From Oribacterium parvum ACB1 (GTDB lineage Bacteria > Bacillota > Clostridia > Lachnospirales > Lachnospiraceae), in the NCBI RefSeq assembly GCF_000238055.2, contig NZ_KE148312.1:1546501-1610500 (forward strand): a stretch of 64,000 bases of DNA, written 5' to 3'. Below the pieces are notes generated by a model, which saw only the letters and a program-made list of their open reading frames with translations, was not told the DNA's origin and ran no database searches. The stretch's first letter is position 1, and the number at the start of each line of letters is the position of its first letter. The position numbers and the translations under genes are program-made. This document shows, piece after piece, positions 37,817 through 51,883 of the stretch.

Positions 37817-38167
37817 GCAGGTTCATTTCCGAGGATGAGGACAGCGATGCATTCATTGAGGCCTATCTACTGGAATCGGAAAAGGTCGAAGCAAAAGAGC
37901 AAGCTGAAGATGAAGCAAAAGAGCAAGTCGAAGCTGAATATGAAGCGGAAGCAATAGATCAAGCGGAAGCAATAGAGAAAGATGAAGCGGAAGCGGACGC
38001 AGCGGAGCAAGCTGAATATGAAGCGGTAATGGAAGCAATGGAGCAAGTTGGAAGTGAAGCGGAGTGGCGGGAAGTCGTACCGCTTGAAACGAATCCGTAT
38101 CGGAATAGAATCTGCCGTAGAAGACAATATAGGGAAGAAGTTGGAAGACAAAGAAATTCCTGGATAA
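37817..38167 (+). pseudogene. Out-of-frame extension of scpB (broken or frameshifted tail)
   Basis: After the scpB stop, the -1 frame is open from 37762 to 38196 and reads GRFISEDEDSDAFIEAYLLE and then an acidic run rich in EAKEQ, EAE and EAI, much like the scpB and ftsH tails. It has no ATG before 38029 and no ribosome site. From about 38030 scpB's own frame is open again and, from about 38100, reads a normal-looking end (GIESAVEDNIGKKLEDKEIPG would be its last 21 residues) to TAA 38165-38167, eight bases before dut. Two compensating small indels, programmed shifting or a sequence error would all explain this. Confidence 0.6.
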
Positions 38168-38174
38168 GGGGAGT

Positions 38175-38618
38175 ATGGAAATGGAAGAAAAGATAAAGAT
38201 TAAATACCATGTAAAAGAATTGGAGAAATTACGTTATATTGACGGAAAAAGTGATTGGATTGATCTACGTGTTGCAGAGGAAGTAAGCATGAAGGCCGGA
38301 GAATTCCGTCTTATTAGCATGGGGATTTCCATAGAGCTTCCGAAGGGATATGAGATGTGGATTTTACCAAGAAGTTCCGCATTTAAGAATTTTGGAATTA
38401 TCCAAACGAACGCTATGGGTGTGGTTGATGAGTCGTTTTGTGGAGACAATGATATTATCCATATGCCGATTCTTGCCATGCGTGACACGGAAATTCATGT
38501 GAACGATCGTATAGGCCAATTTCGTATTATGCAGCACCAACCGGTGGTGAATTTTGTAGAGGTAGAGCATTTGGGAAATGACAATCGTGGAGGTTTTGGT
38601 ACAACGGGAAAGGCATAA
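38175..38618 (+). CDS. dut: dUTP diphosphatase
   Basis: 147 residues, typical trimeric dUTPase. All five motifs are visible: DWIDLRVAE (27-35), PRSS (65-68), GVVDESF (82-88), RIGQFR (112-117) and the glycine-rich C-terminal arm RGGFGTTG (138-145), which closes over the active site. It hydrolyses dUTP to dUMP, keeping uracil out of DNA. Ribosome site AAGGGGAG lies just before the ATG. Its start follows the broken scpB tail. Confidence 0.95.
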   Translation: MEMEEKIKIKYHVKELEKLRYIDGKSDWIDLRVAEEVSMKAGEFRLISMGISIELPKGYEMWILPRSSAFKNFGIIQTNAMGVVDESFCGDNDIIHMPILAMRDTEIHVNDRIGQFRIMQHQPVVNFVEVEHLGNDNRGGFGTTGKA

Positions 38619-38657
38619 CTCCTGAACTGATCTTGCAAAGAGTAGAAAGGAAGAATA

Positions 38658-39341
38658 ATGAAGAAAAAAATTTATTTTGCGCTACTGACCATGGGACTGA
38701 GCTTAAATCTGTTTGCCTGCAAAAATGAAGTGAAGGCCTATCGAATGGAGGGCATTACTGCATTGGAAAAGGGAGAAGCGGAAAAGGCCTTGGAGAATTT
38801 TGACCTCGCTTTGGAAAAGAGTAAGGGAAGAGTAGGAACTTTACAGTATGATATTTTGGCTTACAAGGTGGAAGCGGAGATTCAACTGGGGAAGCTGAAT
38901 GAAGCCGAAGAGAATCTGAAAAATCTCGGGACGCTTTCCGGAAAAAGTTATGAAAAATTGCAGAATCTGATTTCCGCAAAGAAGCTGATTGTATCTGCGG
39001 GAAATGCTTTAAATGAAAATGACTTGGAATCGGCAAGAAGCGCTTTGGATGAAGCAAAAGAAAAAGGGCTGACAGCAGATCGGGAATTGGAGTATAATGA
39101 AGCGGTTTACCTAGAAAAAAACGGGGAATGGCAGAAAGCCTATGATTCTTTTTCGCAGTATTGCAATCGTTATCCTGAGGATACGGAGGCGGCCAGAGAG
39201 TTGACATTTTTGGAGAACCGAGTAAAGGCTCTTGGAGCAAATCCTTTGCTTTCCGCTACAGAGCAAAGAACAGGAAAGCGACACCATAAGTATGTTCGAA
39301 AAAACAGAGTCAAGAAACCTGCACCATCTCCATGGGATTAA
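38658..39341 (+). CDS. TPR-repeat lipoprotein
   Basis: 227 residues. The signal ends in the lipobox LFAC (Cys21). The rest is helical with tetratricopeptide-like repeats (GITALEKGEAEKALENFDLAL, AEIQLGKLNEAEENL, EWQKAYDSFSQY), and a basic, proline-containing C-terminus (KKPAPSPWD). It probably lies on the outer membrane face and scaffolds other proteins. Exact role unknown. It is preceded by AGAAAGGAAG and has dut and an aminotransferase as neighbours. Confidence 0.82.
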   Translation: MKKKIYFALLTMGLSLNLFACKNEVKAYRMEGITALEKGEAEKALENFDLALEKSKGRVGTLQYDILAYKVEAEIQLGKLNEAEENLKNLGTLSGKSYEKLQNLISAKKLIVSAGNALNENDLESARSALDEAKEKGLTADRELEYNEAVYLEKNGEWQKAYDSFSQYCNRYPEDTEAARELTFLENRVKALGANPLLSATEQRTGKRHHKYVRKNRVKKPAPSPWD

Positions 39342-39473
39342 TAGGAGAAGAGTAACATGCAAAAACAGAAGGCGGATGGGAAAAGAGCCGGTATTAAGAA
39401 ACTTGAAAAAGGAATAGTTGAAAACAAGAAGCATACTAAAGAAAAGGATAGAAGAGTAAAAAAGGAGATGCGC

Positions 39474-40787
39474 ATGGGAAGGTATGAGGATTTATCCGTT
39501 GAAGAACTGGAAAGCTTACGAAAGGAATTAAAGCAAAGCTATAGAGAATACCAGAATATGGATCTGAATTTGGACATGAGTAGAGGTAAGCCCAGTCTTG
39601 ACCAGTTGGATTTAAGTAATGGAATGATGGACGCTCTAAACAGTGAGGCGGATATGTATTCCAGTGACGGCTTTGACGTAAGAAATTATGGTGTTTTGGG
39701 CGGCATTGCAGAAGCGAAGGAGTTGCTCTCCGACATGATGGAGAACAATCCGGACAATATCATTATCTTCGGAAACTCTTCCTTGAATGTGATGTATGAC
39801 TCCATTTCCCGTTCTTACTCCCATGGTGTAATGGGAAACACACCTTGGTGCAAGCTCGATAAAATCAAGTGGCTTTGTCCTGTTCCGGGCTATGATCGTC
39901 ACTTTGCCATTACCGAGTATTTCGGTATTGAAATGATTAATGTGCCTATGACGGAAAAGGGACCGGATATGGACATCGTAGAGGAACTGGTAGCCTCTGA
40001 TGAGAGTATCAAGGGAATCTGGTGTGTTCCGAAATACAGTAACCCGCAGGGATACAGCTACTCCGATGAAACGGTACGCCGCTTTGCAAGACTGAAGCCG
40101 GCTGCAAAGGACTTCCGTATTTATTGGGATAATGCTTATGGAATGCATCACCTTTATGACCATGACCAGGACTATCTGATTGAGATTTTGGCAGAATGTA
40201 AAAGAGCGGGAAATCCTGACTTAGTATATAAGTTCGCTTCCACTTCCAAGATTTCCTTCCCGGGCTCCGGTATTGCTTCCATGGCAACCAGCTTAAACAA
40301 CCTGGAAGACATCAAGAAGCAGATGCAGTACCAGACTATCGGACATGATAAGGTGAATCAGCTTCGCCATGTACGCTTTTTTGAGGACATCCACGGTATG
40401 GTGAAGCACATGATGAAGCATGCAGATATAATTCGTCCGAAGTTTGAAATGGTGGAAAGTGTTTTTGAAAAGAATTTAAACGGCTTGGATATCGGCTCTT
40501 GGACCAATCCGAAAGGGGGATATTTTATCAGCTTTGAGACGCTTCCGGGCTGTGCGAAAGAGGTTGTGGACAAGTGTAAAAAGGCAGGTGTGAAGCTGAC
40601 TTCTGCAGGAGCAACTTTTCCCTACGGAAAGGATCCGGAAGACAGCAATATCCGTATTGCGCCTACCTATCCGCCATTGGAAGATTTACGGATTGCGACA
40701 GAGCTTTTCTGTCTTTGCGTGAAGCTTATCAGTGTAGAGAAGCTTTTAAAGAAAAAGACAAGCGGTTTGGAGGCTTGCACGATTTAG
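39474..40787 (+). CDS. Subgroup 1c aspartate aminotransferase-like enzyme
   Basis: Start at ATG 39474 (437 residues), six to seven bases after AAGGAG (39462-39467); ATG 39468 is too close to that site and the first in-frame ATG (39357) would add a lysine-rich leader. It is a fold-type I PLP enzyme. The PLP lysine is in FASTSKISFPGSG, and the Asp/Tyr pair in IYWDNAYGMHHL. N-terminal LDMSRGKPSLDQLDLS and VPKYSNPQG fit the AspT group seen in Corynebacterium and many Clostridia (PF12897, from memory). It probably interconverts aspartate/2-oxoglutarate and oxaloacetate/glutamate; other amino donors are possible. Confidence 0.85.
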   Translation: MGRYEDLSVEELESLRKELKQSYREYQNMDLNLDMSRGKPSLDQLDLSNGMMDALNSEADMYSSDGFDVRNYGVLGGIAEAKELLSDMMENNPDNIIIFGNSSLNVMYDSISRSYSHGVMGNTPWCKLDKIKWLCPVPGYDRHFAITEYFGIEMINVPMTEKGPDMDIVEELVASDESIKGIWCVPKYSNPQGYSYSDETVRRFARLKPAAKDFRIYWDNAYGMHHLYDHDQDYLIEILAECKRAGNPDLVYKFASTSKISFPGSGIASMATSLNNLEDIKKQMQYQTIGHDKVNQLRHVRFFEDIHGMVKHMMKHADIIRPKFEMVESVFEKNLNGLDIGSWTNPKGGYFISFETLPGCAKEVVDKCKKAGVKLTSAGATFPYGKDPEDSNIRIAPTYPPLEDLRIATELFCLCVKLISVEKLLKKKTSGLEACTI

Positions 40788-40820
40788 ATAGTTGGCTAAG
40801 CACGTAATATAGAAAAGAAA

Positions 40821-40860
40821 AAGGGAGTACCGTGATTGTTTCTCGGTACTCCTTCCTCTT
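40821..40860. terminator. Bidirectional terminator
   Basis: GGAGTACCG (40824-40832) pairs with CGGTACTCC (40844-40852). A-rich sequence on the left and a T/C-rich stretch on the right give tails for both the aminotransferase and the minus-strand DUF4364 gene. Confidence 0.8.
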
Positions 40861-40920
40861 TCTTGGTCTTGGATTCGCCCTATTCCGTATTCTTATAATT
40901 CCGTATACTCTCTATACTCT

Positions 40921-41454
40921 TTATTTATTCTCTTCATCCTCTACGAGCTCGGAAAGCAAAAAGGAGTATATCTTTCCGCTTTTTTTCTTCCATGCCTTGC
41001 AGATTGCCTGTGCGATTTCTTCATCCGGTACATCTAAATCCAGTCGACAGAGAAGGCTACTGCTTTCCCTTAATTCAAGTTGCACCGAAAAATCCTGCTT
41101 GTCCGTCTGCGAATAATCAGTGTAAACGGAGGATTCATGTTGCAGTCGTAATTTGTTCTTGGAAAGGAATTGTTCCATATCGTCTTTCACTATGGAAGGG
41201 ATTTCATTTTCAAAAAATTGTAAAGTTTGTTTTCCCTCGTCGCTTATTTCGTAACGCGTGGTACTGCGACTCTGATGAGAGCTGATAAGATGCGCTTCGA
41301 CCAAGTCGGAAATGCACTGTTGCAAGGTAAAGTAGGTAGTGTATTCATTGTCTAAAAAAAATCCGCTTAACTGACTGTTGCTAAGGGGATAACTTACAGA
41401 ATGAAGTAAGTAAAGAATCATTAATTTATATTGCGTTAGGGCTTCTGTGTTCAT
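40921..41454 (-). CDS. DUF4364 family winged-helix protein
   Basis: 177 residues. The N-terminal 85 residues form a winged-helix domain of PadR/MarR character (TQYKLMILYLLHSV, LSNSQLSGFFLDN, RYEISDEGKQTL). The C-terminal half is a beta-rich domain that ends acidic (SELVEDEENK). I recognise the DUF4364 pattern, found widely in Clostridia; it is presumed to be a transcription factor but no targets are known to me. It is transcribed away from the large gene starting at 42058. Confidence 0.82.
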   Translation of the reverse strand: MNTEALTQYKLMILYLLHSVSYPLSNSQLSGFFLDNEYTTYFTLQQCISDLVEAHLISSHQSRSTTRYEISDEGKQTLQFFENEIPSIVKDDMEQFLSKNKLRLQHESSVYTDYSQTDKQDFSVQLELRESSSLLCRLDLDVPDEEIAQAICKAWKKKSGKIYSFLLSELVEDEENK

Positions 41455-41613
41455 AGATATTCCTTTTATTGCTTATCAATCTTTATTTAAAATAAGTAAA
41501 CAAGCAAATCTCATAAAATCACTTTCCCGAAAGAGGGGAGAGCATCTTCAATTCGCATTTTATTGCAGTTTAAGTACCTAGTTTAGCAGATTATTACGGA
41601 GATAGGCAATAGG

Positions 41614-41656
41614 AAGAAGAGCTATTCTGTTTTCAAAGAAGAGCTATTCCGTTTTC
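41614..41656. repeat. Two 21-bp direct repeats
   Basis: AAGAAGAGCTATTCTGTTTTC at 41614-41634 and the same with one change at 41636-41656, period 22. They lie in the long gap between the DUF4364 gene and the next operon, upstream of its likely promoter. The gap also has a stem AAGGGAAA/TTTCCCTT at about 41687-41718. Confidence 0.7.
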
Positions 41657-41715
41657 TAAGAAGGAATATTGCATTTCAAAAAAGAAAGGGAAAAAGGAAT
41701 GAAATAGGCTTTCCC

Positions 41716-41745
41716 TTGCACTAAGGGCATGTTTTAAAGTATACT
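41716..41745 (+). promoter_or_regulatory. Likely promoter of the DUF5717-DUF5716-TPR-valS operon
   Basis: TTGCAC at 41716-41721 and TATACT at 41740-41745, 18-base spacer. It would give a leader of about 300 bases. A second candidate is the extended -10 TGCTAAAAT at 42027-42035, close to the start. Confidence 0.55.
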
Positions 41746-41897
41746 CTTTCCTCGGGTACCTTGTTTCATGGCTATCCTACATTGATTTTTAAAAGTTTTA
41801 TCCTTCTATTTCGGAAAGATTTCGAACAAAGGCGGAAAAAGAAGGTTTTAGGCATAGTAAATATAAAGATAGAAGTATTGAGATGGAAATATAGTAT

Positions 41898-41939
41898 AGC
41901 AATATAAATACAGCAATATAGATGCAGTAATATAGATGC
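41898..41939 (+). repeat. Three 14-bp tandem repeats in the leader
   Basis: AGCAATATAAATAC, AGCAATATAGATGC and AGTAATATAGATGC follow each other without gaps. They are non-coding and lie about 120 bases upstream of the start at 42058. Confidence 0.85.
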
Positions 41940-42057
41940 AGAACAAAGAATGATTGAGATGGATGAAGCAAAGGGGAAGGGAAACTGAGGTATGGAAAAT
42001 TCTATCTTTTTAGAACGGCTTTCCTATGCTAAAATAGAGCCCTATGGAGTGTTTGCT

Positions 42058-44685
42058 ATGAGAGAAAAGATTAACAAATTAGCCAGAGGTATCGTGGACC
42101 AGGAAAAGCCTTCTACTCATTTTTCGGAAGAGTATATCGAAGGTAAGATTCCTTTTTTGGAGACGAAGACATTTGAAATATTTATACAATCCTTGAACGG
42201 AATTCCTATGCGGGGCTTGGTATATTGTAAGGAGCCTTTTATTGTTTTGCACAAAAATGCGTTTGGAGGTGTAAGAACCAAGGTAAGCTTTTCGGTGAAT
42301 ACCGAGGGGATGGATGAGGAGACGGAACTCCATGGAGAGTTGGACTTCGTTTATTTGGGTGGGGAAAAGCGGATTCCCTATCATTTTGTTTTGGAAAAAT
42401 CTCCCTCTGCTCAGCAAATCAAAGAGATTCGTCATTGTCATGACTTAAAAGAACTGACGGAAGAGGATAAAGCGGCAGCAGTTCGCCTTTTTGACTATCG
42501 TGACTTTCCGTCTGCCCCCCTGATGCAAAACGGAGAGGCGGCAAAGCTCTATTCTCTTTTGAAGCCCTGTGTGAATCGTACTCTTGCATTGGAAGAGTTT
42601 TTAACATATTTTTCGGAAAGACCGAGGAATGCGCAAAACCGAAACAGTAGGGCGTTTGTATCCGGAGAGAAAGAAGAAAAGCATCTGGAATTTCCGGAAG
42701 GGATGTCGCTGGAAGATAAGATTACACAGTGCATTCGAAACGGAGAAAGAGGAGAAGAAGCATTTTCCCTTTACAAACAGGGTGTTGAGGAAAATATAAA
42801 GCTGACCAATCTCTATGAGAATCTCCTTTATTCCATGAAAAGGGGCTATAAGGAGGAATTACCGAAAAGCGTTTATCTCTATTTTTCTTATGAGTATCGT
42901 GTAGAAGAAGGCTTAAGACTGGCTTTGTATTACAATATTCTACATAATTTCCGGGAAAACTCCGATATCTACCAGAAGTTTGCAAGGCAAATGCAGGATT
43001 TCGCGATAGAATCACTTTTGGAAGGAAGAATGAATGAAGAGTTGGGCTTCCTTTATCAGAATCTGATTTTTCCGGATATGGTGGATGAAAAAATGGCGGA
43101 GGTGCTTCCTAAGATTCTTCGTTCATATAAGGTCGTGGTAGAGGATACTGAGATTGAGAAGATCGTGCTTTCCCATCCTGCCTTGGAAGGGGAAGAAATA
43201 TACAGCCTCGAAAACGGAGAGGCCTATGTTCCCATGCCGTATAGGGATATGATTCTTCTCTTCCAAGATGATAGGGGCAATCGTTATTGTCGTGTAAATT
43301 ATAGAAAAACCAAGGTTTTTGAAGGTGCAGAACTGGAACGAAAGGTAGAAAAGCTTTTTGGCTCCGGCTCTGTCTTCCTTCTGCAAAAAGCATTGCTTTT
43401 ACAAAAAGAGGGAATGAAGACGGAAGAGGATCTGGAACTAATGGAAAAAGTATTCCAGAATCCGGCTTTTTCCGCTGCTTTTCGCATGGAGATTTTAGGG
43501 GAGATTCTCGCTTATCACAGAAAGGAAAACGCTGTATTTTTCCACGAGGAAAGCCTGCAATTTTTACTTAAAATTCCCACAAAAGGAATGAATCGGAAGG
43601 AGAAAGAGAATTATCTTTCCGCTCTTTTATTCAGGGGAGAAATGGAACGGGCGATTTCTTTCTATAAGGAAAACCCGTATCTAAATATTGAAAAGGAACT
43701 TTTAGCGGATTTTGTGGATGCAGCGATAGACCGTGGGGAGAATGCGCTTTCCCTGTATCTTTCATTTATTGCTTTTCAGGAGCACAAAATCAGTGACAAG
43801 GCCTTGGCTTTTCTTCTCGAAGAGTGGAATGGTGCGAGTGTAGAGATGTATTCCATTTTGAAAAGAGCTGAAAAGCGGAGAGAAGAGAAGGGAAAGATTG
43901 CCTCCGCTCAGCTTTTAAACATGGCTGAACGCCTTTTAGCGCAATGCCTGTTTACAGAGCAAAGAAGGGAAGCGGAAGAGGCCTTTTCTCTTTACAGAAG
44001 TTTTTCGGGGAATGAGCCCTTGCTCATGCGAGCCTTTTTAACCAGTTATGCCGTTTCCGTTTTCTTGTATCAGAAAAAAGAAAATCCTGAATTTACCCGT
44101 TTGCTTTATGAGGAAGTAAGAGGGGAGTCTTACAAGGAAAGAGTCCCGCTTATCAGTCTTTTGGCTTTGAGTTATTCTTTTTCCAAGAGGAAATCTTTGA
44201 CGGAAGATGAGAAGGAAGTTTTAAATGATATCCTGCCGATTCTTTTGGATAAGAATTATGTCTTCTCCTACACAAAAGATCTGGCTAAGTTTGTTCCGCT
44301 TCCTAAGGCAGTCATGGAAAAAACAGTTGTGGAATACCATGGGAAAATAGAAGAAAAGCCTTATTTTTCCGTGCGAAATCAAGGAGAGAAGGAGTTCCAC
44401 AGAGAAGAATTGCAACACAGTTATCATGGAATTTATACTGCATCCTTCCTTTTATTCCCGGGTGAGAGCATGGAATATCGCTTTACCATCGGAAAAGAGG
44501 ATAAGCTTCTCTATGAGTCTGTCTTGAAAAAGGATGGAACACATATAACAGATGGAGAGGATGCCTATTCCGCTCTGTGCAGGATGTCTTCACTTCTTAT
44601 GGAAGGAAATAGGGAAGAGCTGCGTCCTCTTATGGAAGAGTATGAGGAAAAGGAACTGGCGTTAAGCAGAGTTTTAATGGAGTAA
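42058..44685 (+). CDS. Large cytosolic protein of unknown function (DUF5717-like)
   Basis: I favour ATG 42058 (875 residues): TGGAG lies eight bases before it and the protein then starts MREKINKLARG, the way I recall DUF5717 proteins starting. An in-frame ATG at 41992 has a poor site. No signal peptide or membrane helix is seen. Residues 1-125 look like a beta-sandwich, about 215-640 are helical and TPR/HEAT-like, and the C-terminal part (about 770-860) looks beta-rich (EYHGKIEEKPYFSV, ESMEYRFTIGKEDKLLYES). It resembles a helical-repeat scaffold capped by beta domains. Function unknown. It heads a run of three genes ending at valS. Confidence 0.75.
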   Translation: MREKINKLARGIVDQEKPSTHFSEEYIEGKIPFLETKTFEIFIQSLNGIPMRGLVYCKEPFIVLHKNAFGGVRTKVSFSVNTEGMDEETELHGELDFVYLGGEKRIPYHFVLEKSPSAQQIKEIRHCHDLKELTEEDKAAAVRLFDYRDFPSAPLMQNGEAAKLYSLLKPCVNRTLALEEFLTYFSERPRNAQNRNSRAFVSGEKEEKHLEFPEGMSLEDKITQCIRNGERGEEAFSLYKQGVEENIKLTNLYENLLYSMKRGYKEELPKSVYLYFSYEYRVEEGLRLALYYNILHNFRENSDIYQKFARQMQDFAIESLLEGRMNEELGFLYQNLIFPDMVDEKMAEVLPKILRSYKVVVEDTEIEKIVLSHPALEGEEIYSLENGEAYVPMPYRDMILLFQDDRGNRYCRVNYRKTKVFEGAELERKVEKLFGSGSVFLLQKALLLQKEGMKTEEDLELMEKVFQNPAFSAAFRMEILGEILAYHRKENAVFFHEESLQFLLKIPTKGMNRKEKENYLSALLFRGEMERAISFYKENPYLNIEKELLADFVDAAIDRGENALSLYLSFIAFQEHKISDKALAFLLEEWNGASVEMYSILKRAEKRREEKGKIASAQLLNMAERLLAQCLFTEQRREAEEAFSLYRSFSGNEPLLMRAFLTSYAVSVFLYQKKENPEFTRLLYEEVRGESYKERVPLISLLALSYSFSKRKSLTEDEKEVLNDILPILLDKNYVFSYTKDLAKFVPLPKAVMEKTVVEYHGKIEEKPYFSVRNQGEKEFHREELQHSYHGIYTASFLLFPGESMEYRFTIGKEDKLLYESVLKKDGTHITDGEDAYSALCRMSSLLMEGNREELRPLMEEYEEKELALSRVLME

Positions 44686-44704
44686 ACGAAGGAAAGAGGT
44701 TTTT

Positions 44705-45946
44705 GTGAAAATAATCGGAATCGCGCTAAGCGATGAATATACGGATATTTCCTTGGTAAAAGAAGAGTATACCTATCGCTTTCCTACTCTTTTAAGCAGG
44801 GAAAGACAGGAGAATCGCTTTTATATCGGAGAAGAAGCGTACAAGAAGAATCTGGATGGCGGTGTTATCCTGGTTGATAAACTGCTCTCTCTTTTTAAGA
44901 AAAAGGGAAGTGCTACTCTGGCAGAGAAATGTTATGATGCCGGAGAACTTTTGGCTATATTTTTAGAGCAGCTTCTTATAGAAGGAGAGAATCGCATAAA
45001 GGGGAAGGAGATTCCTGAAGAAGATGGCAAAGATGTTCTTGTACTCAGTGTTCGAGATGCAGAGCCGGAAGTGATGCATTCGCTTAAGGCTCTTCTAAAC
45101 AAGACCTTTTCCGACAGATATGAAATCCGTTTAGTCAGCCATGCGGAAAGCTTTGCACACTATATTTTAAGGCAGGAAAAGAAGCTCTACAATCGTTTGG
45201 TGGGAATGTTTGAATTTTCCTCTCAGGTGCTGTACTACTATGAGATGCAGGTGTCCAAAGGCAGTAAAAAGTACGCTATCTCTGTTGGGGAAGCACAGCC
45301 GGATGCCTTATCCTCTGGTATACTGGAAAACCCCATAGGAAGGAAGATGACGGATCAGGTGCTCTCCGGTGTCACGGATCGTATTACCAAGGCTAAGGTC
45401 TATAGTGCATTCTTCCTTTCAGGAAAAGGTTTTGAAAATACGGAGCTCTTTCCAGAGTTTATGAAGAAGCTGCTTCGGGGAAGAAGGGTTTGTGTAGAAT
45501 CCTTTCTTTTCTCTATTGGCGCTTTGGAATACGGAAAGCTGATTGGCAAGGGAGAAGAAGAGGAATACTTACTTCTCTGCGATACTCGGATTTCTCATGA
45601 AATCAGTATTAAGGTAAGCCAGAAGGAAAGAGAATTCCCTCTTTATCTTGCTCATGCCGGAGATCCTTGGCTTGAGGAGAGAAAGGACGTATATCTTCTT
45701 TTGGATAATCAGGACTATATTGATTTTCAGGTACATAAGTTAAGTGGAAGTGCCAGAGCTAAGCAATACAGGATGAGCCTAAAGGAGTTTCCGAAGAGAG
45801 AGCGTCGTTGTACTAAAGTTTCCTTGCATACCCGTTTTTGGGGAAATGAAACAGCCGTCATTAAACTTACGGATTTGGGCTTTGGAGAGCTTTGGAAGGG
45901 GACTTATCAATCCATTGAAGAAAGTATTCCCCTAGGAAAGGAGTAA
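44705..45946 (+). CDS. Degenerate Hsp70/actin-fold protein (DUF5716-like)
   Basis: 413 residues from GTG 44705, with AAAGAGG upstream. The layout follows the ASKHA fold: a phosphate-1-like start IIGIALSDEYTDISLV (3-18), ESFAHYIL (148-155) like the Hsp70 EPxAA helix, a phosphate-2-like GMFEFSSQVLYYYE (167-180) lacking the glycines of DLGGGT, and an adenosine-like FFLSGKGFENTELF (226-239) with SIGALEYGKLIG (260-271). The end (TRFWGNETAVIKLTDLGFGEL) recalls an Hsp70 substrate-binding beta domain. Missing glycines suggest lost or altered ATPase activity. I know it only as a DUF5716-like family of Lachnospiraceae. It is 19 bases after the previous gene. Confidence 0.72.
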   Translation: MKIIGIALSDEYTDISLVKEEYTYRFPTLLSRERQENRFYIGEEAYKKNLDGGVILVDKLLSLFKKKGSATLAEKCYDAGELLAIFLEQLLIEGENRIKGKEIPEEDGKDVLVLSVRDAEPEVMHSLKALLNKTFSDRYEIRLVSHAESFAHYILRQEKKLYNRLVGMFEFSSQVLYYYEMQVSKGSKKYAISVGEAQPDALSSGILENPIGRKMTDQVLSGVTDRITKAKVYSAFFLSGKGFENTELFPEFMKKLLRGRRVCVESFLFSIGALEYGKLIGKGEEEEYLLLCDTRISHEISIKVSQKEREFPLYLAHAGDPWLEERKDVYLLLDNQDYIDFQVHKLSGSARAKQYRMSLKEFPKRERRCTKVSLHTRFWGNETAVIKLTDLGFGELWKGTYQSIEESIPLGKE

Positions 45947-45947
45947 G

Positions 45948-46733
45948 ATGGCGCTGATTTTATGCAAAGCGGAGGCAAAAACGCCCTATTATTATGAAAG
46001 ACTGGATTTGCACATATACTCTCTGGAAGAACTTGCCTATGCTCTGGGGCATTATCTTTATCTGGTGCCGGAACATTTTGTCGGGAAGGAACTTTGTCAC
46101 TGGATTATAGACAGTTTGGGCGAGCAGACCTTCGGCGAGAAGCTTCTTTCGCTGATAGAAATGGGGGAAAAAGAAGAGCGACTGCTCTTTCGCCTGATTC
46201 GGGAATCCGGATATTATACGGAAAAAGAAGTGGATGAGCTCAGTATGGAATGGAGAAGAATCCATGCTTTAAGTGAAGCGGAAAGAAGAGAAAAGATGGG
46301 AGACAGCCTCTTTTCTTTAGGGAAATACGGTAAGGCTCTGGATGCGTATCAGGACGCCTTGCATTTTGAGGAAAATGGTCGCAGAATCCGAAAAATCGGA
46401 GAGAGCTATATTCACACAAAGGAATTCCAGCGTGCAGCGGAAAGCTATAGAAAACTTTATGAAAGAAATCACGATAAGATGGCGGCAAGAAGACTGTATT
46501 TTCTTTCTAAAATGTGCTTCCCGAAAGATAAATTCAAAGATGTTTTTTCGGAGCTGGATGAGGGCGTGACCGATTCCTGGGAAAAGGAGTGGGAAGACAG
46601 TCTGAAAGCGGCAAGAGTAAGCTCGGAAAGAAAAGAAATTGACGGGGCGTATAGAGAGGGAAAGGAAGTCTTTCTTTCCTTTGCAAGAAAAAAAATCGAA
46701 TCGTGGAAAGAAGAGATTCGAGGTAGAGCGTAG
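45948..46733 (+). CDS. TPR protein of the DUF5717-DUF5716 module
   Basis: 261 residues, starting one base after the stop of the Hsp70-like gene, with AAGGAG inside that gene's last codons. The N-terminal 110 residues (ALILCKAEAKTPYYYERL, SLEELAYALGHYLYLVP) look like a helical domain. Two to three TPR units follow (GDSLFSLGKYGKALDAYQDAL, GESYIHTKEFQRAAESYRKLY), and the C-terminus is charged and helical. No signal or membrane segment. Tight spacing points to a complex with the preceding protein, much as TPR co-chaperones pair with Hsp70. The pairing is inferred from context only. Confidence 0.75.
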   Translation: MALILCKAEAKTPYYYERLDLHIYSLEELAYALGHYLYLVPEHFVGKELCHWIIDSLGEQTFGEKLLSLIEMGEKEERLLFRLIRESGYYTEKEVDELSMEWRRIHALSEAERREKMGDSLFSLGKYGKALDAYQDALHFEENGRRIRKIGESYIHTKEFQRAAESYRKLYERNHDKMAARRLYFLSKMCFPKDKFKDVFSELDEGVTDSWEKEWEDSLKAARVSSERKEIDGAYREGKEVFLSFARKKIESWKEEIRGRA

Positions 46734-46750
46734 GATAGGAGGAAGAGGGA

Positions 46751-49453
46751 ATGAAAGAACTCGCAAAACAGTATAATCCGGAAGAGGTTGAGGACAGAAT
46801 ATATGAAAAGTGGCTGAAGGGGAATTATTTTTCAGCAAAGGTCAACCATGCCAAGAAGCCTTTTTCCATTATGATGCCGCCTCCTAATGTTACGGGACAG
46901 CTTCATATGGGGCATGCTTTAGATAATGCTTTGCAGGATACACTAATTCGTTTTAAGAGAATGCAGGGCTATGAAACGCTCTGGCAGCCAGGAACGGACC
47001 ATGCAGCCATCTCTACGGAAGTTAAAGTGATCAATATGCTGAAGGAACAGGGCATAGATAAGCATGATCTCGGAAGAGAGGGATTTCTGAAGGAGGCTTG
47101 GAAGTGGAAGGATAAATATGAGAAACGAATCGTAGACCAGCTCCATAAGATGGGTTCCTCTCCGGATTGGAACAGAATTCGTTTTACCATGGATGAGGGC
47201 TGCTCTCATGCGGTTCTACAGAGTTTTATCCACCTCTATGAAAAAGGCTATATCTATAAGGGTTCCAAAATCATCAACTGGTGCCCTGTTTGTCAGACTT
47301 CCATTTCCGATGCGGAGGTGTTGCATGAGGAGAAAGAAGGTTCTTTCTGGCATATTCTTTATCCCATTGTCGGAGAAGAGGGAAAGTATGTGGAAATCGC
47401 AACGACCCGTCCGGAAACTCTCCTTGGTGATATGGCGGTTGCCGTAAATCCTGAGGATGAGCGCTACAAGGATCTTGTGGGGAAAGAGCTTCAGCTTCCT
47501 TTGACAGATAGAACAATTCCCGTTATTGCCGATCAGTATGTAGACAAAGAATTCGGAACCGGCTGTGTAAAGATTACACCGGCTCATGATCCCAATGACG
47601 CTATCGTGGGAGAACGCCATAATTTAGCAGTGATGAACATCTTAACGGATGATGCAAAGATTGATTTACCGGGTTCCAAATACCACGGCATGGATCGTTA
47701 TGAGGCAAGAAATGCCATGGTTTCGGATCTTGAGGCGCAAGGGCTTTTAAAGAAAGTGGTACCGCATATCCATAATGTGGGAATTCATGATCGCTGTGGG
47801 ACAACCGTTGAACCAATGGTGAAACCCCAGTGGTTTGTAAAAATGGAAGAGATGGCAAAGCCTGCTATTGAAGCCTTAAAGAACGGAGAGCTACAATTTG
47901 TTCCGGAAAACTACGGAAAGACCTATCTCCATTGGCTTGAAAATATCAAAGACTGGTGTATTTCCAGACAGATTTGGTGGGGACATCGTATTCCTGCCTA
48001 TTATTGCGATTCTTGCGGGGAAATGCTGGTGAGTGAAGAAATGCCTAAAAGCTGTCCGAAATGCGGCGGAACACATTTCACACAGGATGAGGATACCCTG
48101 GATACCTGGTTCTCCAGTGCTCTTTGGCCTTTTGAAACGCTGGGCTGGCCGGAAGATACCGAAGATTATCGCTATTTTTACCCCACGGATGTACTGGTTA
48201 CCGGATATGACATTATCTTCTTCTGGGTTGTTCGCATGGTTTTCTCCGGAATCGAGCAGACCGGAAAAGTACCGTTTAAAAAGGTACTCATTCACGGACT
48301 GGTTCGAGATGATCAGGGAAGGAAGATGAGTAAGTCTCTCGGAAACGGGATCGATCCTTTGGAAATCATTGCCGAATATGGTGCAGACGCGCTTCGAATG
48401 ACGCTTCTTACCGGTAATGCGCCCGGAAATGACATGCGCTTTTACCATAGCAGAGTCGAAGCCAGTCGAAACTTTATGAATAAGGTTTGGAATGCTTCTC
48501 GCTTCCTTTTCATGAATTGTAATGAAGAGGAGTGCAAGGCTCTTTCAATGCTGTCTTCTCTTGAAAATCCGACCCTTGCCGAGCTTTTAGACAAGGTTCC
48601 GGAGAATTTGGAGATGGCGGATAAGTGGATTCTTTCCAAGTTAAACAGCGTTGTAGCGGAAGTGACGAGAAATCTGGAGTCCTTTGACCTCGGTATTGCT
48701 TTGGATAAGACACAGAGCTTTATCTGGGAGGAGTTCTGTGACTGGTACATCGAGATGGTGAAGCCGCGTCTCTATAACGAGGGGGGAGAGAGTAAGCGTC
48801 TTGCTTTATGGACTTTATTGAAAGTCCTTAAGACTTCCTTAAGCTTGCTTCATCCCTTCTGCCCCTTCATTACGGAAGAAATATATGAGACGGAGAAGTC
48901 TTTATTTAGAGACGATGAGAAACCTCTAATCATTTCCGAGTTTCCGAAATATACGGAAACACTGGATTTCGATACCGAAGAGAAGGAAATAGAGGAGATT
49001 AAGGAGGCGGTTCGTGCTGTCCGAAATATTCGTACGGAAATGAATGTACCCCCATCTAAAAAAGCTACAATTTATCTCGTTTCCGAGGATGAATCGTTAA
49101 GAAAATCGTTCCAACATAGTAAGGTATTCTTTGCTACCCTTGCTTTTGCTTCCGATGTTATAATACAGGAGAATCGGGACGGCATTCCGGAGAATGCCGT
49201 ATCCGTTCTCATTCCGAAGGCGAATCTGTTCATTCCCTTCAGTGATCTTGTGGATATCGAAAAAGAGCGCGAGAGACTGGAGAAGGAAGAAGAGAGGCTG
49301 AAGAATGAAATACAACGTGCAGAAGGAATGTTGAAAAACGAGCGATTCCTTTCCAAGGCGCCCAAAGAAAAGGTTGCAGAAGAAAAGGAAAAGGCAGATA
49401 AGTACAGACAGATGTTAGAGCAAGTTAAAGAGAGAAAGGGAATGCTTTCCTAA
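46751..49453 (+). CDS. valS: Valyl-tRNA synthetase
   Basis: 900 residues, normal length. The class I signatures are HMGH (52-55, variant of HIGH) in PPPNVTGQLHMGH and KMSKS (525-529). The editing CP1 domain (about 190-370), a zinc-type CxxC pair (YYCDSCG, CPKCG), the anticodon-binding domain and the C-terminal coiled coil (about 835-898) are all visible. It follows the TPR gene by 17 bases and has no T-box leader of its own, so its transcription seems tied to the module upstream. Ribosome site AGGAGGAAGAGG. Confidence 0.98.
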   Translation: MKELAKQYNPEEVEDRIYEKWLKGNYFSAKVNHAKKPFSIMMPPPNVTGQLHMGHALDNALQDTLIRFKRMQGYETLWQPGTDHAAISTEVKVINMLKEQGIDKHDLGREGFLKEAWKWKDKYEKRIVDQLHKMGSSPDWNRIRFTMDEGCSHAVLQSFIHLYEKGYIYKGSKIINWCPVCQTSISDAEVLHEEKEGSFWHILYPIVGEEGKYVEIATTRPETLLGDMAVAVNPEDERYKDLVGKELQLPLTDRTIPVIADQYVDKEFGTGCVKITPAHDPNDAIVGERHNLAVMNILTDDAKIDLPGSKYHGMDRYEARNAMVSDLEAQGLLKKVVPHIHNVGIHDRCGTTVEPMVKPQWFVKMEEMAKPAIEALKNGELQFVPENYGKTYLHWLENIKDWCISRQIWWGHRIPAYYCDSCGEMLVSEEMPKSCPKCGGTHFTQDEDTLDTWFSSALWPFETLGWPEDTEDYRYFYPTDVLVTGYDIIFFWVVRMVFSGIEQTGKVPFKKVLIHGLVRDDQGRKMSKSLGNGIDPLEIIAEYGADALRMTLLTGNAPGNDMRFYHSRVEASRNFMNKVWNASRFLFMNCNEEECKALSMLSSLENPTLAELLDKVPENLEMADKWILSKLNSVVAEVTRNLESFDLGIALDKTQSFIWEEFCDWYIEMVKPRLYNEGGESKRLALWTLLKVLKTSLSLLHPFCPFITEEIYETEKSLFRDDEKPLIISEFPKYTETLDFDTEEKEIEEIKEAVRAVRNIRTEMNVPPSKKATIYLVSEDESLRKSFQHSKVFFATLAFASDVIIQENRDGIPENAVSVLIPKANLFIPFSDLVDIEKERERLEKEEERLKNEIQRAEGMLKNERFLSKAPKEKVAEEKEKADKYRQMLEQVKERKGMLS

Positions 49454-49487
49454 AATTTCAACCTTCCTTCAGAAAACGGGAGGTTCT

Positions 49488-50063
49488 ATGAAGAGGTTAA
49501 TAAAATTAAGTTTTCTTACGGCAGCTTTATTGTTTTGCCTTGCCTTTACGGTAACGGCGGAAGAAAGAGCTGCAAGTAATGAAGAAATTGCTGCGGTAAA
49601 GAGCGGACATAGTACGGCATACAGCTGGGAAAACAGTGGAAATCACTGGAAGCTGCTGTACTTGGATGTGAAGGGAAAGTCTTGGAAGTATGCAAAGGAT
49701 CGTTGGGTGCAGATTGGCAGTCGCTTTTACTATTTCGATGGAGAAGGCAATGCGGAAGAAGGCTGGTTCCGGCTTGAAGGAAAGTGGTATTTTGCGGAAT
49801 ATGATTCCACAATGAGAAACAGTGAAACGGCCTGCGTGGTTCGTACAGGCTGGGCAAGTATTTCCAACGACAGAGGTCGCTACCATACCTTCTACTTTGC
49901 AACGGATAAGGATGGAAGACCAAGCGGCATGCTGCAGGGGGATGCGGGACGCTATGATGCGTTCACCATCGACGGCAGAGAGGTTTATTTTGATGACCAG
50001 GGCTATGCGGATACACGGACCGCTCCGGGAGATGTGCAGAAGTTCTCGGGAAAGAGAGTGTAA
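49488..50063 (+). CDS. Secreted protein with wall-binding repeats
   Basis: 191 residues. A signal peptide (about 1-24, ending TVTA) precedes aromatic-Gly repeats of the choline-binding/CW type: WVQIGSRFYYFDGEGNAEEGWF, LEGKWYFAEYDS and YHTFYFATDKDGRPSG regions. No catalytic domain is seen, so it is made almost only of wall-binding units. It is the second such protein in the window (the other is at 1472). It lies between valS and rlmH with tight spacing, an odd place for a surface protein. Confidence 0.8.
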   Translation: MKRLIKLSFLTAALLFCLAFTVTAEERAASNEEIAAVKSGHSTAYSWENSGNHWKLLYLDVKGKSWKYAKDRWVQIGSRFYYFDGEGNAEEGWFRLEGKWYFAEYDSTMRNSETACVVRTGWASISNDRGRYHTFYFATDKDGRPSGMLQGDAGRYDAFTIDGREVYFDDQGYADTRTAPGDVQKFSGKRV

Positions 50064-50064
50064 G

Positions 50065-50544
50065 ATGACTTTAAGAGTCTGTGCTGTTGGTAAAATCAAA
50101 GAGAAATTTTTTAAAGAGGCACTTTCCGAATATGGAAAGCGCCTCTTTAAGTATTGCAAATTAGAAATGATAGAAGTAGCAGACGAGAAGACAAGGGAAG
50201 GAGCAAGTTCTCTAGAAGAGCAAATGGTCCTCGATAAAGAAGGGAAGAGGCTGATGGAAAAGATTCCGGAACGCTCCTTTGTCATTGCTCTTGCAATAAA
50301 AGGAAAAGAAATGGATTCTCCTGAATTGGCAAAGAATATGGAGAAACTTTTTCTGGAAGGGAAAAGTGATATTACTTTTGTTATAGGCGGTTCCTTGGGG
50401 CTTAGTGAAGAACTCTATCAAAGAGCGGATCTTTTGCTCAGCTTTTCGCGAATGACGTTCCCGCATCAGTTGATGCGTGTTATTTTATTGGAGCAGATTT
50501 ACAGAAGCTTTCGTATTAATTCGGGAGAGCCCTATCATAAATAA
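50065..50544 (+). CDS. rlmH: 23S rRNA pseudouridine-1915 N3-methyltransferase RlmH
   Basis: 159 residues, exactly the family length from ATG 50065, which follows the preceding stop by one base. It has the SPOUT knot fold with FVIGGSLGLSEEL (about 106-118) and the C-terminal QLMRVILLEQIYRSFRI and GEPYHK, all hallmarks of RlmH. It methylates Psi1915 in helix 69 of 23S rRNA on the assembled 70S ribosome. A longer in-frame reading from 49822 would run through the previous gene and is not real. Confidence 0.96.
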   Translation: MTLRVCAVGKIKEKFFKEALSEYGKRLFKYCKLEMIEVADEKTREGASSLEEQMVLDKEGKRLMEKIPERSFVIALAIKGKEMDSPELAKNMEKLFLEGKSDITFVIGGSLGLSEELYQRADLLLSFSRMTFPHQLMRVILLEQIYRSFRINSGEPYHK

Positions 50545-50767
50545 CAAAAAATATGCCAAAGAATAATTGTTTTTATAAATCTTATTTATTTATAACAGAC
50601 AAAGATTTTATTTTCGTGTAATTCGGCTGGAATCTTCTTCCGAAAAATGATAGACTTGTTACAGAAATTTGTTCGTGACAGGCTTTATTTTTTTACTCTG
50701 TATTTAAAAAAATAAGCTGTCCGAAAAGTGAAAAAAGTGAGGAAAATTTAAAGAAAAGGAGGGGAAA

Positions 50768-51265
50768 ATGTTTCAGTCAGGCACGTATGTGGTTTATGGC
50801 TGTAAGGGGGTTCATAAGATTCTTGGAACCACTCATCTGAACTTGGAAGGGATTCCGAAAGACCGGGAGTACTATGTGATGCAGGCAGTAAAGAAACCGG
50901 CCGGAGCAGTATATGCTCCTGTGGAAGCCGGCAAGACGAATATGCGATCGGTAATGACCAGAGAGCAGGCAGAGATTTTTCTGCATACCGCAGAGCAGAT
51001 TCACGCATTATGTTGTAAGACACCGAAGCAAAGAGAAGAGAACTGTCGGGAAGGAATAAAGAGTTGTTCTCCGAATGCATTGCTGCAAGTGATTAAAACG
51101 GTGAAAGAGAGAAGGGAAGAAAGAGCCAGGCAGGGAAAGAAGCTTACACTTTTAGATCTGCATTTCATGGAACAGGCGGAAGATATACTGTATGAAGAAC
51201 TGGCGATTTCTCTGAGTATTTCCAGAGTAGAGGTAGAAGAGAAGATTCGAGCTTATGCGTCATAA
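50768..51265 (+). CDS. CarD/CdnL family transcription regulator
   Basis: 165 residues. The N-terminal RNA-polymerase-interacting domain (about 1-65) begins MFQSGTYVVYGCKGVHKI, and a helical DNA-binding C-terminus follows. CarD proteins bind the RNA polymerase beta subunit and stabilise open promoters. The usual HG in this N-terminal motif is KG here. It is a stand-alone gene with AAGGAGGGG upstream; the 223-bp gap before it is AT-rich and shows no clear promoter. Confidence 0.85.
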   Translation: MFQSGTYVVYGCKGVHKILGTTHLNLEGIPKDREYYVMQAVKKPAGAVYAPVEAGKTNMRSVMTREQAEIFLHTAEQIHALCCKTPKQREENCREGIKSCSPNALLQVIKTVKERREERARQGKKLTLLDLHFMEQAEDILYEELAISLSISRVEVEEKIRAYAS

Positions 51266-51327
51266 GGGCAAGAGTAGGAATCGGGAGATAAAAGCTGACT
51301 TGTAAGGAATAAAGCAGAGTATTAGAG

Positions 51328-51358
51328 GGGATAAGGTGTATGCCTTATTCCCTTTTCC
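51328..51358 (+). terminator. Probable terminator after the CarD gene
   Basis: GGGATAAGG (51328-51336) pairs with CCTTATTCC (51343-51351), followed by the mixed C/T tail CCTTTTCCC. Moderate. Confidence 0.55.
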
Positions 51359-51369
51359 CATTCTGGGCA

Positions 51370-51398
51370 TTGCCATTAAAGATGCTTTTTCGTATACT
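51370..51398 (+). promoter_or_regulatory. Promoter for gtrA-yfhO
   Basis: TTGCCA at 51370-51375 and TATACT at 51393-51398 with a 17-base spacer, 64 bases before the GTG start of the GtrA gene. Confidence 0.7.
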
Positions 51399-51462
51399 TG
51401 ACATTGGATTTTAAAAAGACTTAAGAGAAAGTCGGTCTATTCCGGTTTTATTTGGAGGGGTC

Positions 51463-51867
51463 GTGAAAAAAAACATACTGGAGGAAGGCGTACGTTATAT
51501 CATTGTGGGAGTACTCACCACGGCGATAAATTATATTGTTTATGCCGGCTGCGATTTTCTGTTCGAAAGAATGGGAATTCCGCCTTTTTTTTCTTATAAA
51601 ATTGCGTATCTGATTGCGTTTGTTATAGCGGTGTTTTTTGCTTATTTTGCGAATAAATATCTGGTATTTCAAAAGTCGGGCGGGAATAAAGGAAGAGAGC
51701 TTTTTTCTTTTTTTAGCCTCCGTATCGGATCGGGTATTCTCAGCTTTTTGCTTTTGATGTTTTTTGTGGATTTTCTGCATTTTACGCATACTCCGGGCTG
51801 GATTCTCAGTTCCGGAATCAATCTGGTATTAAACTATATCGGAAGTAAGTTCTTTATTTTTAAATGA
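51463..51867 (+). CDS. GtrA family membrane protein
   Basis: 134 residues starting with GTG, with GGAGGG before it. Four membrane helices in the GtrA pattern: RYIIVGVLTTAINYIVY at the start, FAYFANKYLVF in the middle and INLVLNYIGSKFFIFK at the end. GtrA-type proteins are thought to flip or assist lipid-linked sugars in glycan decoration. The YfhO gene follows after about 16 bases, so the two likely serve wall or teichoic-acid glycosylation. Confidence 0.9.
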   Translation: MKKNILEEGVRYIIVGVLTTAINYIVYAGCDFLFERMGIPPFFSYKIAYLIAFVIAVFFAYFANKYLVFQKSGGNKGRELFSFFSLRIGSGILSFLLLMFFVDFLHFTHTPGWILSSGINLVLNYIGSKFFIFK

Positions 51868-51883
51868 GGTTTTTGAGGTGAAA

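Follow-up and report, generated by a model that had tools for sequence, protein, structure and literature searches.

We analysed a stretch of 64,000 nucleotides from Oribacterium parvum ACB1 (contig NZ_KE148312.1, positions 1,546,501 to 1,610,500 of the forward strand; hereinafter the window), in which three adjacent genes encode a DUF5717 protein, a DUF5716 protein and a tetratricopeptide repeat (TPR) protein. The DUF5716 protein is almost certainly a relative of Hsp70, and we propose that the three genes are what is left of a larger Hsp70 machine. The features of this three-gene module are listed below; SBD-beta is the beta part of the Hsp70 substrate-binding domain (SBD), and IIB is a subdomain of its nucleotide-binding domain (NBD).

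42058..44685, + strand: DUF5717 protein, 875 residues (Pfam, AlphaFold, fold searches)
42094..42399, + strand: PapD/MSP/ASH-like domain of the DUF5717 protein, residues 13-114
44705..45946, + strand: DUF5716 protein, 413 residues, a lidless and IIB-less degenerate Hsp70
44714..44755, + strand: eroded phosphate-1 loop of DUF5716, IGIALSDEYTDISL versus IGIDLGTTNSCVAV in the genome's DnaK (alignment)
45203..45244, + strand: eroded phosphate-2 loop of DUF5716, GMFEFSSQVLYYYE versus MVYDLGGGTFDVSI in the genome's DnaK (alignment)
45566..45931, + strand: retained SBD-beta-like beta sandwich, DUF5716 residues 288-409 (DSSP of the model, structural alignment)
45948..46733, + strand: TPR protein, 261 residues, a lineage-specific N-domain followed by TPR repeats (weak Pfam TPR matches, N-domain alignment A9)

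The intergenic gaps are 19 and 1 bases, and the coordinates confirm the tight packing described in an earlier note made from the sequence alone. An alternative in-frame ATG for the first gene lies at 41992. The start at 42058 is backed by the conserved DUF5717 N-terminus, as the loose pattern M-[RK]-E-[RK]-I-N-R-L-A is present in 47 of 55 aligned homologues. The first protein matches Pfam DUF5717_N (PF18984; expectation value (E) 2.8e-115, 386.5 bits) and DUF5717 (PF18983; E 3e-49, 168.3 bits), with a cut-off of 25 for each, and the second matches DUF5716_C (PF18980; E 1.1e-75, 254.9 bits against a cut-off of 34.7). The third matches TPR families weakly, the best being TPR_1 (E 4.5e-6, 26.7 bits, below the cut-off of 27.8). 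None of the three attains the cut-off of an NCBIfam model. In Pfam, DUF5716 and DUF5717 are names without a function, and in the open-licence PubMed Central (PMC) literature either name was found in one paper, which is unrelated (curcuma derivatives). Averaged over 19 residues, Kyte-Doolittle hydropathy peaks at 1.13, 1.27 and 0.69 for genes 1, 2 and 3, so the prediction that the proteins are cytosolic is reasonable.

The structure model of DUF5716 contains an Hsp70-type NBD of the acetate and sugar kinase/Hsp70/actin (ASKHA) fold, which is also indicated by fold searches and a sequence profile. Specifically, the NBD is followed by an SBD-beta with strands from 288 to 409, and residues 1-412 of the model align with residues 2-505 of DnaK over 380 residues. 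The 50 best fold matches shown per search are Hsp70-type proteins, and Hsp110/Sse1 is among the matches. The earlier note had read the fold and an Hsp70-like beta domain from the sequence, and of the two results that it named as refuting, models without an ASKHA fold and genes that fail to co-occur, neither came about.

Outside the window's family, Lachnospiraceae, DUF5717 is present in 12 of 24 genomes of the order, and here homologues of the three module genes lie in a cluster with several Hsp70 genes. We read 15 stretches from those 12 genomes and 3 further stretches; genomes carry G handles and loci L handles in the counts given here. The fullest cluster, in G042, comprises a DUF5717_N-like gene, DUF5717, HspA, a GrpE-domain protein (E 1.8e-14), a DUF5716 homologue, HspB, HspC and a TPR protein. 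HspA, HspB and HspC are names coined here, HspC being an Hsp70 fused to a VWA domain. The first cluster gene matches the first third of DUF5717_N, where the PapD-like domain of the window protein lies. Each of these genes has a counterpart in G039, the TPR gene there being recognised by eye. In genome-wide profile searches (thresholds 1e-60 for HspA and 1e-80 for HspB and for HspC), HspA was found in 11 of the 12 DUF5717 carriers outside the family, all but G051, and HspB and HspC in 10, not in G041, where the cluster runs off the contig end, or G051. The HspC profile also catches other Hsp70s, but these reach at most about 320 bits and end before the VWA part. By the same searches none of the three occurs in any of 37 genomes of the window's family, and the module genes of the named loci are spaced too closely to leave room for them.

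Two kinds of protein in the cluster deserve mention in their own right. At L113:12511-14673 an Hsp70 carries a VWA domain at the place of the lid (PF25106, E 1.3e-10; HSP70, E 2.5e-95), and such a fusion is found in 10 of the 24 other genomes of the order. At L113:7351-9309 and L115:8517-9368 a GrpE domain forms the end of proteins of 652 and 284 residues, inside the Hsp70 cluster. Searches of the open-licence PMC literature found no description of a cluster that combines several Hsp70s, a GrpE-domain protein and an Hsp70-VWA fusion, and the strings 'Clostridi' and 'Lachnospir' are absent from the main text of a paper on DnaK duplication (PMC11019930).

DUF5716 shares descent with the Hsp70s, and HspB is its nearest relative. 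In pairwise profile comparisons, DUF5716 matches the cluster homologues with E 2.6e-35 and HspB with E 5.4e-17, and the homologues match HspB with E 2e-70; the G042 homologue also matches Pfam HSP70 (PF00012; E 1.9e-16). A tree of 47 rows was built from 13 of 70 family sequences (the window's plus 12 taken at even steps), 10 homologues, 8 HspA, 8 HspB, 7 HspC and DnaK. It places DUF5716 among the Hsp70s, on the HspB side. With fold, sequence profiles and tree in agreement, the term 'degenerate Hsp70' used in the earlier note is right. The ASKHA fold is common to actin and MreB, and the large solenoid modelled for DUF5717 would suit a complex for cell architecture, in which the ASKHA subunit polymerizes or positions something on the scaffold. 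Such a role is hard to credit in the face of the SBD-beta in the model, the Hsp70s as sequence relatives and the best fold matches, those shown being Hsp70-type proteins.

Within the tree, the DUF5716 rows form two sets. One consists of nine homologues (support 99/95); the other unites the G039 homologue and every family row (100/100), the family rows alone having 100/99. Because clusters with Hsp70s occur in both sets, a single loss of the cluster's Hsp70s, on the stem of the window's family, is the shortest account. The tree was drawn from its midpoint, and the direction of change assumes a root among the Hsp70s. G051 (row D_L121), one of the nine homologues, has DUF5717 and a fast-evolving DUF5716 homologue and none of HspA, HspB and HspC in its genome, which suggests a second reduction of the cluster. 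We hold this loosely, because its row is the longest in the tree (3.09, with D_L126 at 1.89).

The alignment also agrees with the earlier note that the phosphate-binding glycines of DUF5716 are eroded. HspA, HspB and HspC have intact loops, GIDLGTTN-like and DxGGGTxD. The loops of the DUF5716 homologues read like GIDIGN and DFGSRELRG, and those of G039 and the family rows like DLCDDYT and FDLSDEGLYYYE. In the window protein, phosphate-1 (DLGTTN) and phosphate-2 (DxGGGT) are gone, the corresponding stretches being IGIALSDEYT and FEFSSQVL. The equivalents of the catalytic residues Lys70 and Glu171, numbered after the E. coli protein, are changed in columns assigned by alignment alone. NBD subdomain IIB is missing, positions 206-284 of the genome's own DnaK having no counterpart, and the SBD-alpha lid is missing too, as the protein ends after the beta sandwich. 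All 10 homologues, that of G039 among them, have a residue in the column of the IIB helix, and all 13 family rows have a gap there; the whole IIB stretch was examined in three homologues and three family rows. GrpE acts through Hsp70 subdomain IIB, as stated in passages of PMC10825016, and for this reason the loss of IIB is coherent with a locus from which the GrpE-domain gene is missing.

The trio of DUF5716, DUF5717 and TPR protein is kept together across a large, mostly gut-dwelling family, and the co-occurrence of its genes is near perfect among relatives and far beyond chance. In 30 relative loci with flanks of about 1.5 kb, the TPR gene was found in 30 and DUF5717 in 23. Named genomes yielded 352 confirmed stretches on scanning, and the counts for named loci refer to the best 80 of these. 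DUF5717 lies upstream in 77 and the TPR gene downstream in 78, all on the strand of the module. The incomplete loci are L071 and L106, which start inside the module, L104, which ends in it, and L101. Most named loci with the module are labelled Lachnospiraceae or its genera, for example Oribacterium sp. WCC10 (L095). Among 61 genomes (the window's and 60 relatives), 45 have both DUF5717 and DUF5716 and 12 have neither (Fisher p 4e-9, uncorrected for kinship). Two have DUF5717 alone (G003, G041) and two DUF5716 alone (G006, G036); the matches lie near contig ends in G003, G006 and G041, and G036 is 67% complete. In an even sample of 245 genomes of the class, DUF5716, DUF5717 and the N-domain of gene 3 occur in the same 9, all of the window's family and its own included, and none of them was found in the other 236. 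The evolutionary rates of the module genes are linked as well, with partial correlations, given the downstream neighbour valS, of 0.77-0.85 (25 loci) and 0.68-0.81 (35 loci), and of 0.50-0.63 between the module and the neighbour DUF4364 (25 loci). In these tests a score limit was applied to valS, as the match in L059 is an isoleucyl-type synthetase (read from the sequence), and L034, L035, L075, L080, L092 and L096 were left out, mostly because DUF5717 is cut.

The sole clear orphan is L101:9998-11233, where DUF5716 stands alone and no DUF5717 or TPR gene was found within 10 kb on either side; the gene next to it on the other strand is CTP-synthase-like, judging from the start of its sequence. 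Two candidate sole roles were rejected. Sporulation was set aside because SpoIVA, over the cut-off in 35 of 61 genomes overall, is so in none of 17 genomes of the window's genus, each of which has at least one of the two DUFs, and flagella because PF00771 is missing in 15 of 61 genomes, including the carriers of both DUFs G007, G008, G019, G023, G026 and G028.

The AlphaFold model of DUF5717 (predicted local distance difference test 89.1, predicted template modelling score 0.74) has an N-terminal PapD/MSP-like beta domain, a long alpha-solenoid, a beta insert at 356-419 and a C-terminal beta domain at 755-824. The helical scaffold supposed by the earlier note is thus modelled as a solenoid, with the PapD/MSP-like domain in addition. 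Whole-chain Foldseek matches are weak (E about 2e-4 or worse), and the VIA rows mainly cover residues 13-114. In most named homologues the open frame of DUF5717 has about 1160-1250 residues, versus 875 in the window. Ahead of the PapD-like domain, its first residues (window 42058-42099) show strong conservation, with a pattern of roughly M-[RK]-E-[RK]-I-N-R-L-A-[RK]-G, and this start is possibly a docking helix. The family DUF5717 matches two separate cluster genes in profile comparison (E 4.7e-75 and 4.9e-31). The neighbour of DUF5716 is a TPR protein, as supposed, with an N-domain at about residues 1-110 before the repeats, and it matches the cluster TPR protein with a pairwise E of 2.3e-28.

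At L080:6353-11263, DUF5717 and DUF5716 stand in one frame of 1637 residues. This is probably a metagenome frameshift and not a fusion, because the end of DUF5717 turns, by eye, into non-homologous-looking sequence before DUF5716 starts. The DUF5716 part of L080 was kept in alignment A5, and L080 was excluded from A6 as from the rate tests.

Taken as a whole, we somewhat favour the reading in which an Hsp70 chaperone machine has been reduced to the core seen in the module, a dead Hsp70 on a scaffold, and several points weigh against it. The window DUF5716 has no match to PF00012 at E <= 1. The GrpE-domain protein is absent from the module locus in the window's family, a statement about the locus only, as no genome-wide search was made. 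The G039 cluster (L115), in which HspC and the TPR gene are each split over two frames and a stop codon lies inside the HspA match, may be decaying or misassembled. The motifs were assigned from a multiple alignment and not from a residue-level structural overlay, both structure predictions (DUF5716, DUF5717) are of single chains, the control gene of the rate tests, DUF4364, is itself a neighbour, and a single control gene is thin. Preferential conservation of SBD-beta was tested and not found, the mean information in the DUF5716 family being 2.53 bits for the NBD and 2.43 bits for SBD-beta; the NBD is therefore not drifting and may still bind something. Finally, the Asp8 equivalent is nearly invariant in the family, but lost in the window copy, and G240 and G272, aligned to the adenine side of DnaK, are invariant.

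The last of these points bear on the possibility that DUF5716 still binds a nucleotide or other small ligand in a modified cleft, without hydrolysing it, and that this sets the state of the complex. The conserved NBD, the invariant glycines and the nearly invariant Asp7 position would fit, and Ssz1 is a precedent for ATP that is bound and not hydrolysed (passages of PMC7083937). Against it stand the missing loops (GTTN, GGGT), the changes at the positions of Lys70 and Glu171, the absence of IIB and, in the window copy, the loss of the aspartate; we consider such binding improbable.

On the reading of a dead Hsp70 on a scaffold, the nearest working analogy is Ssz1 of the eukaryotic ribosome-associated complex (RAC, Ssz1/Zuo1). 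According to passages of PMC7083937, Ssz1, an Hsp70 without a lid, can bind ATP and not hydrolyse it; it is described there as an active chaperone that binds transiently and with low affinity, and strands of its partner stabilise it. It is on this precedent that we propose DUF5716 as an ATP-independent binding subunit on a scaffold. DUF5716 ends before a lid, and judging from its motifs it would probably not hydrolyse ATP. The analogy has limits, as Ssz1 is an ATP binder that works at the ribosome together with a J-domain protein, whereas DUF5716 is without IIB and the phosphate loops, and neither the three window proteins nor the 10 cluster proteins searched (8 of G042, 2 of G039) gave a J-domain match. 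Prokaryotic Hsp70s are named in passages of a review (PMC8215388) as three types, DnaK, HscA and HscC, which are ATP-dependent and have a lid. Their NBD and SBD-beta are of common descent with those of DUF5716, the tree having included DnaK and not HscA or HscC, but they keep the ATPase and the lid that DUF5716 is without. HspA, HspB and HspC are encoded, with the GrpE-domain protein, beside homologues of the three window genes, and unlike DUF5716 they keep canonical ATPase motifs.

In the mechanism that we propose, and which we rate as evenly poised, the three proteins would form a stable cytosolic complex in which DUF5716 would no longer cycle with ATP. Its SBD-beta would be a constitutive, low-affinity and ATP-independent site for client segments or a partner strand, and its NBD shell a docking face. 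DUF5717 would be the platform that holds it, and the TPR protein would recruit clients or a partner, possibly the cell's DnaK. Going further, the module could be the equivalent of RAC in bacteria. On the stem of the window's family, and apparently again in G051, an entire Hsp70 machine would have been cut down to a catalytically dead Hsp70 and its scaffold; these would now serve as an ATP-independent holding or relay platform, and the dead paralogue, not the engines, would have been indispensable. We regard this extension as speculative and doubtful.

Alternatively, DUF5716 could be a co-factor of canonical DnaK, such as an exchange factor or recruiter of Hsp110/Sse1 type, with DUF5717 and the TPR protein delivering clients. 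DnaK is the one full-length match to Hsp70 in the genome itself, the fold matches include Hsp110/Sse1, and TPR proteins are common partners of Hsp70s. PF00012 is matched in 60 of 61 relatives with or without the module, so the distribution gives no specific link to DnaK, and Hsp110 uses the lid and the ATP binding whose parts (lid, phosphate loops) DUF5716 has lost. We consider a co-factor of this kind unlikely.

Two genes flank the module in the window.

40921..41454, - strand: DUF4364 protein, divergent neighbour, membership in the system uncertain (Pfam PF14277, E 5.9e-54)
46751..49453, + strand: valS, downstream neighbour, not counted in the system (same-strand position in relatives)

DUF4364 lies upstream of DUF5717 in 36 of 66 loci with at least 3 kb upstream, on the opposite strand in 35, and its protein is a candidate regulator. 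Also upstream, the genes of trigger factor, ClpP, ClpX, Lon and a GTPase of EngB type each return in 8 to 15 of 80 loci, where flanks permit. On the other side, the repeated neighbours are genes of FolC, SpoIIAB and sigma-factor type and one for a zinc-ribbon TPR protein (16 to 28 of 80 loci each), and the downstream order in G042 is like that of module loci. For these flanking types one representative each was scanned with Pfam. The module thus sits at a recurring address, as its flanking genes form a recurring block. The TPR protein with the zinc-ribbon-like start, seen by eye, is encoded beyond valS in 28 of 80 loci, and in G042 as well (L089:17823-19565, L130:8060-9472).

The valS gene starts 17 bases after the TPR gene in the window. 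Of 57 loci with at least 6 kb beyond the TPR gene, 35 have valS downstream on the same strand, and it is downstream in G039 and G042 too. This position is what speaks for a tie of the module to translation through valS, by shared regulation or a tRNA-linked role. In 22 of the 57, no valS at E < 1e-100 was found within the sequence covered (L064 has a partial match about 8.5 kb away). When 14 other loci were scanned for RNA families, 3 showed a T-box between the TPR gene and valS; it sits near valS in L063 and L066, and 0.8 kb ahead of valS in L037. As the recurring block can explain the adjacency by position alone, the shared address seems to reflect an ancient arrangement of genes, and a functional tie is very improbable. 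The earlier note thus stands in part: the degenerate Hsp70 fold and the co-occurrence are supported, the link between valS and the module is not.

T-box control of the module in the window was also rejected: a search of positions 38000-52000 at E <= 1 gave four matches, all below gathering scores and none a T-box. The regulation of valS may have changed in the window's lineage, with its 17-base gap in which no T-box was found. Promoter-like patterns are below the shuffle mean (9 versus 12.7) and terminator-like ones above it (13 versus 7.9), and neither was used as evidence.

Two families that are widespread in Lachnospiraceae-type bacteria, and unnamed, gain an evolutionary identity from these results, and a cluster comes to light in which several Hsp70s accompany a GrpE-domain protein and an Hsp70-VWA fusion. 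A machine is seen losing its ATP-driven members while the dead Hsp70 stays, which makes the role of a pseudo-Hsp70 testable in bacteria.

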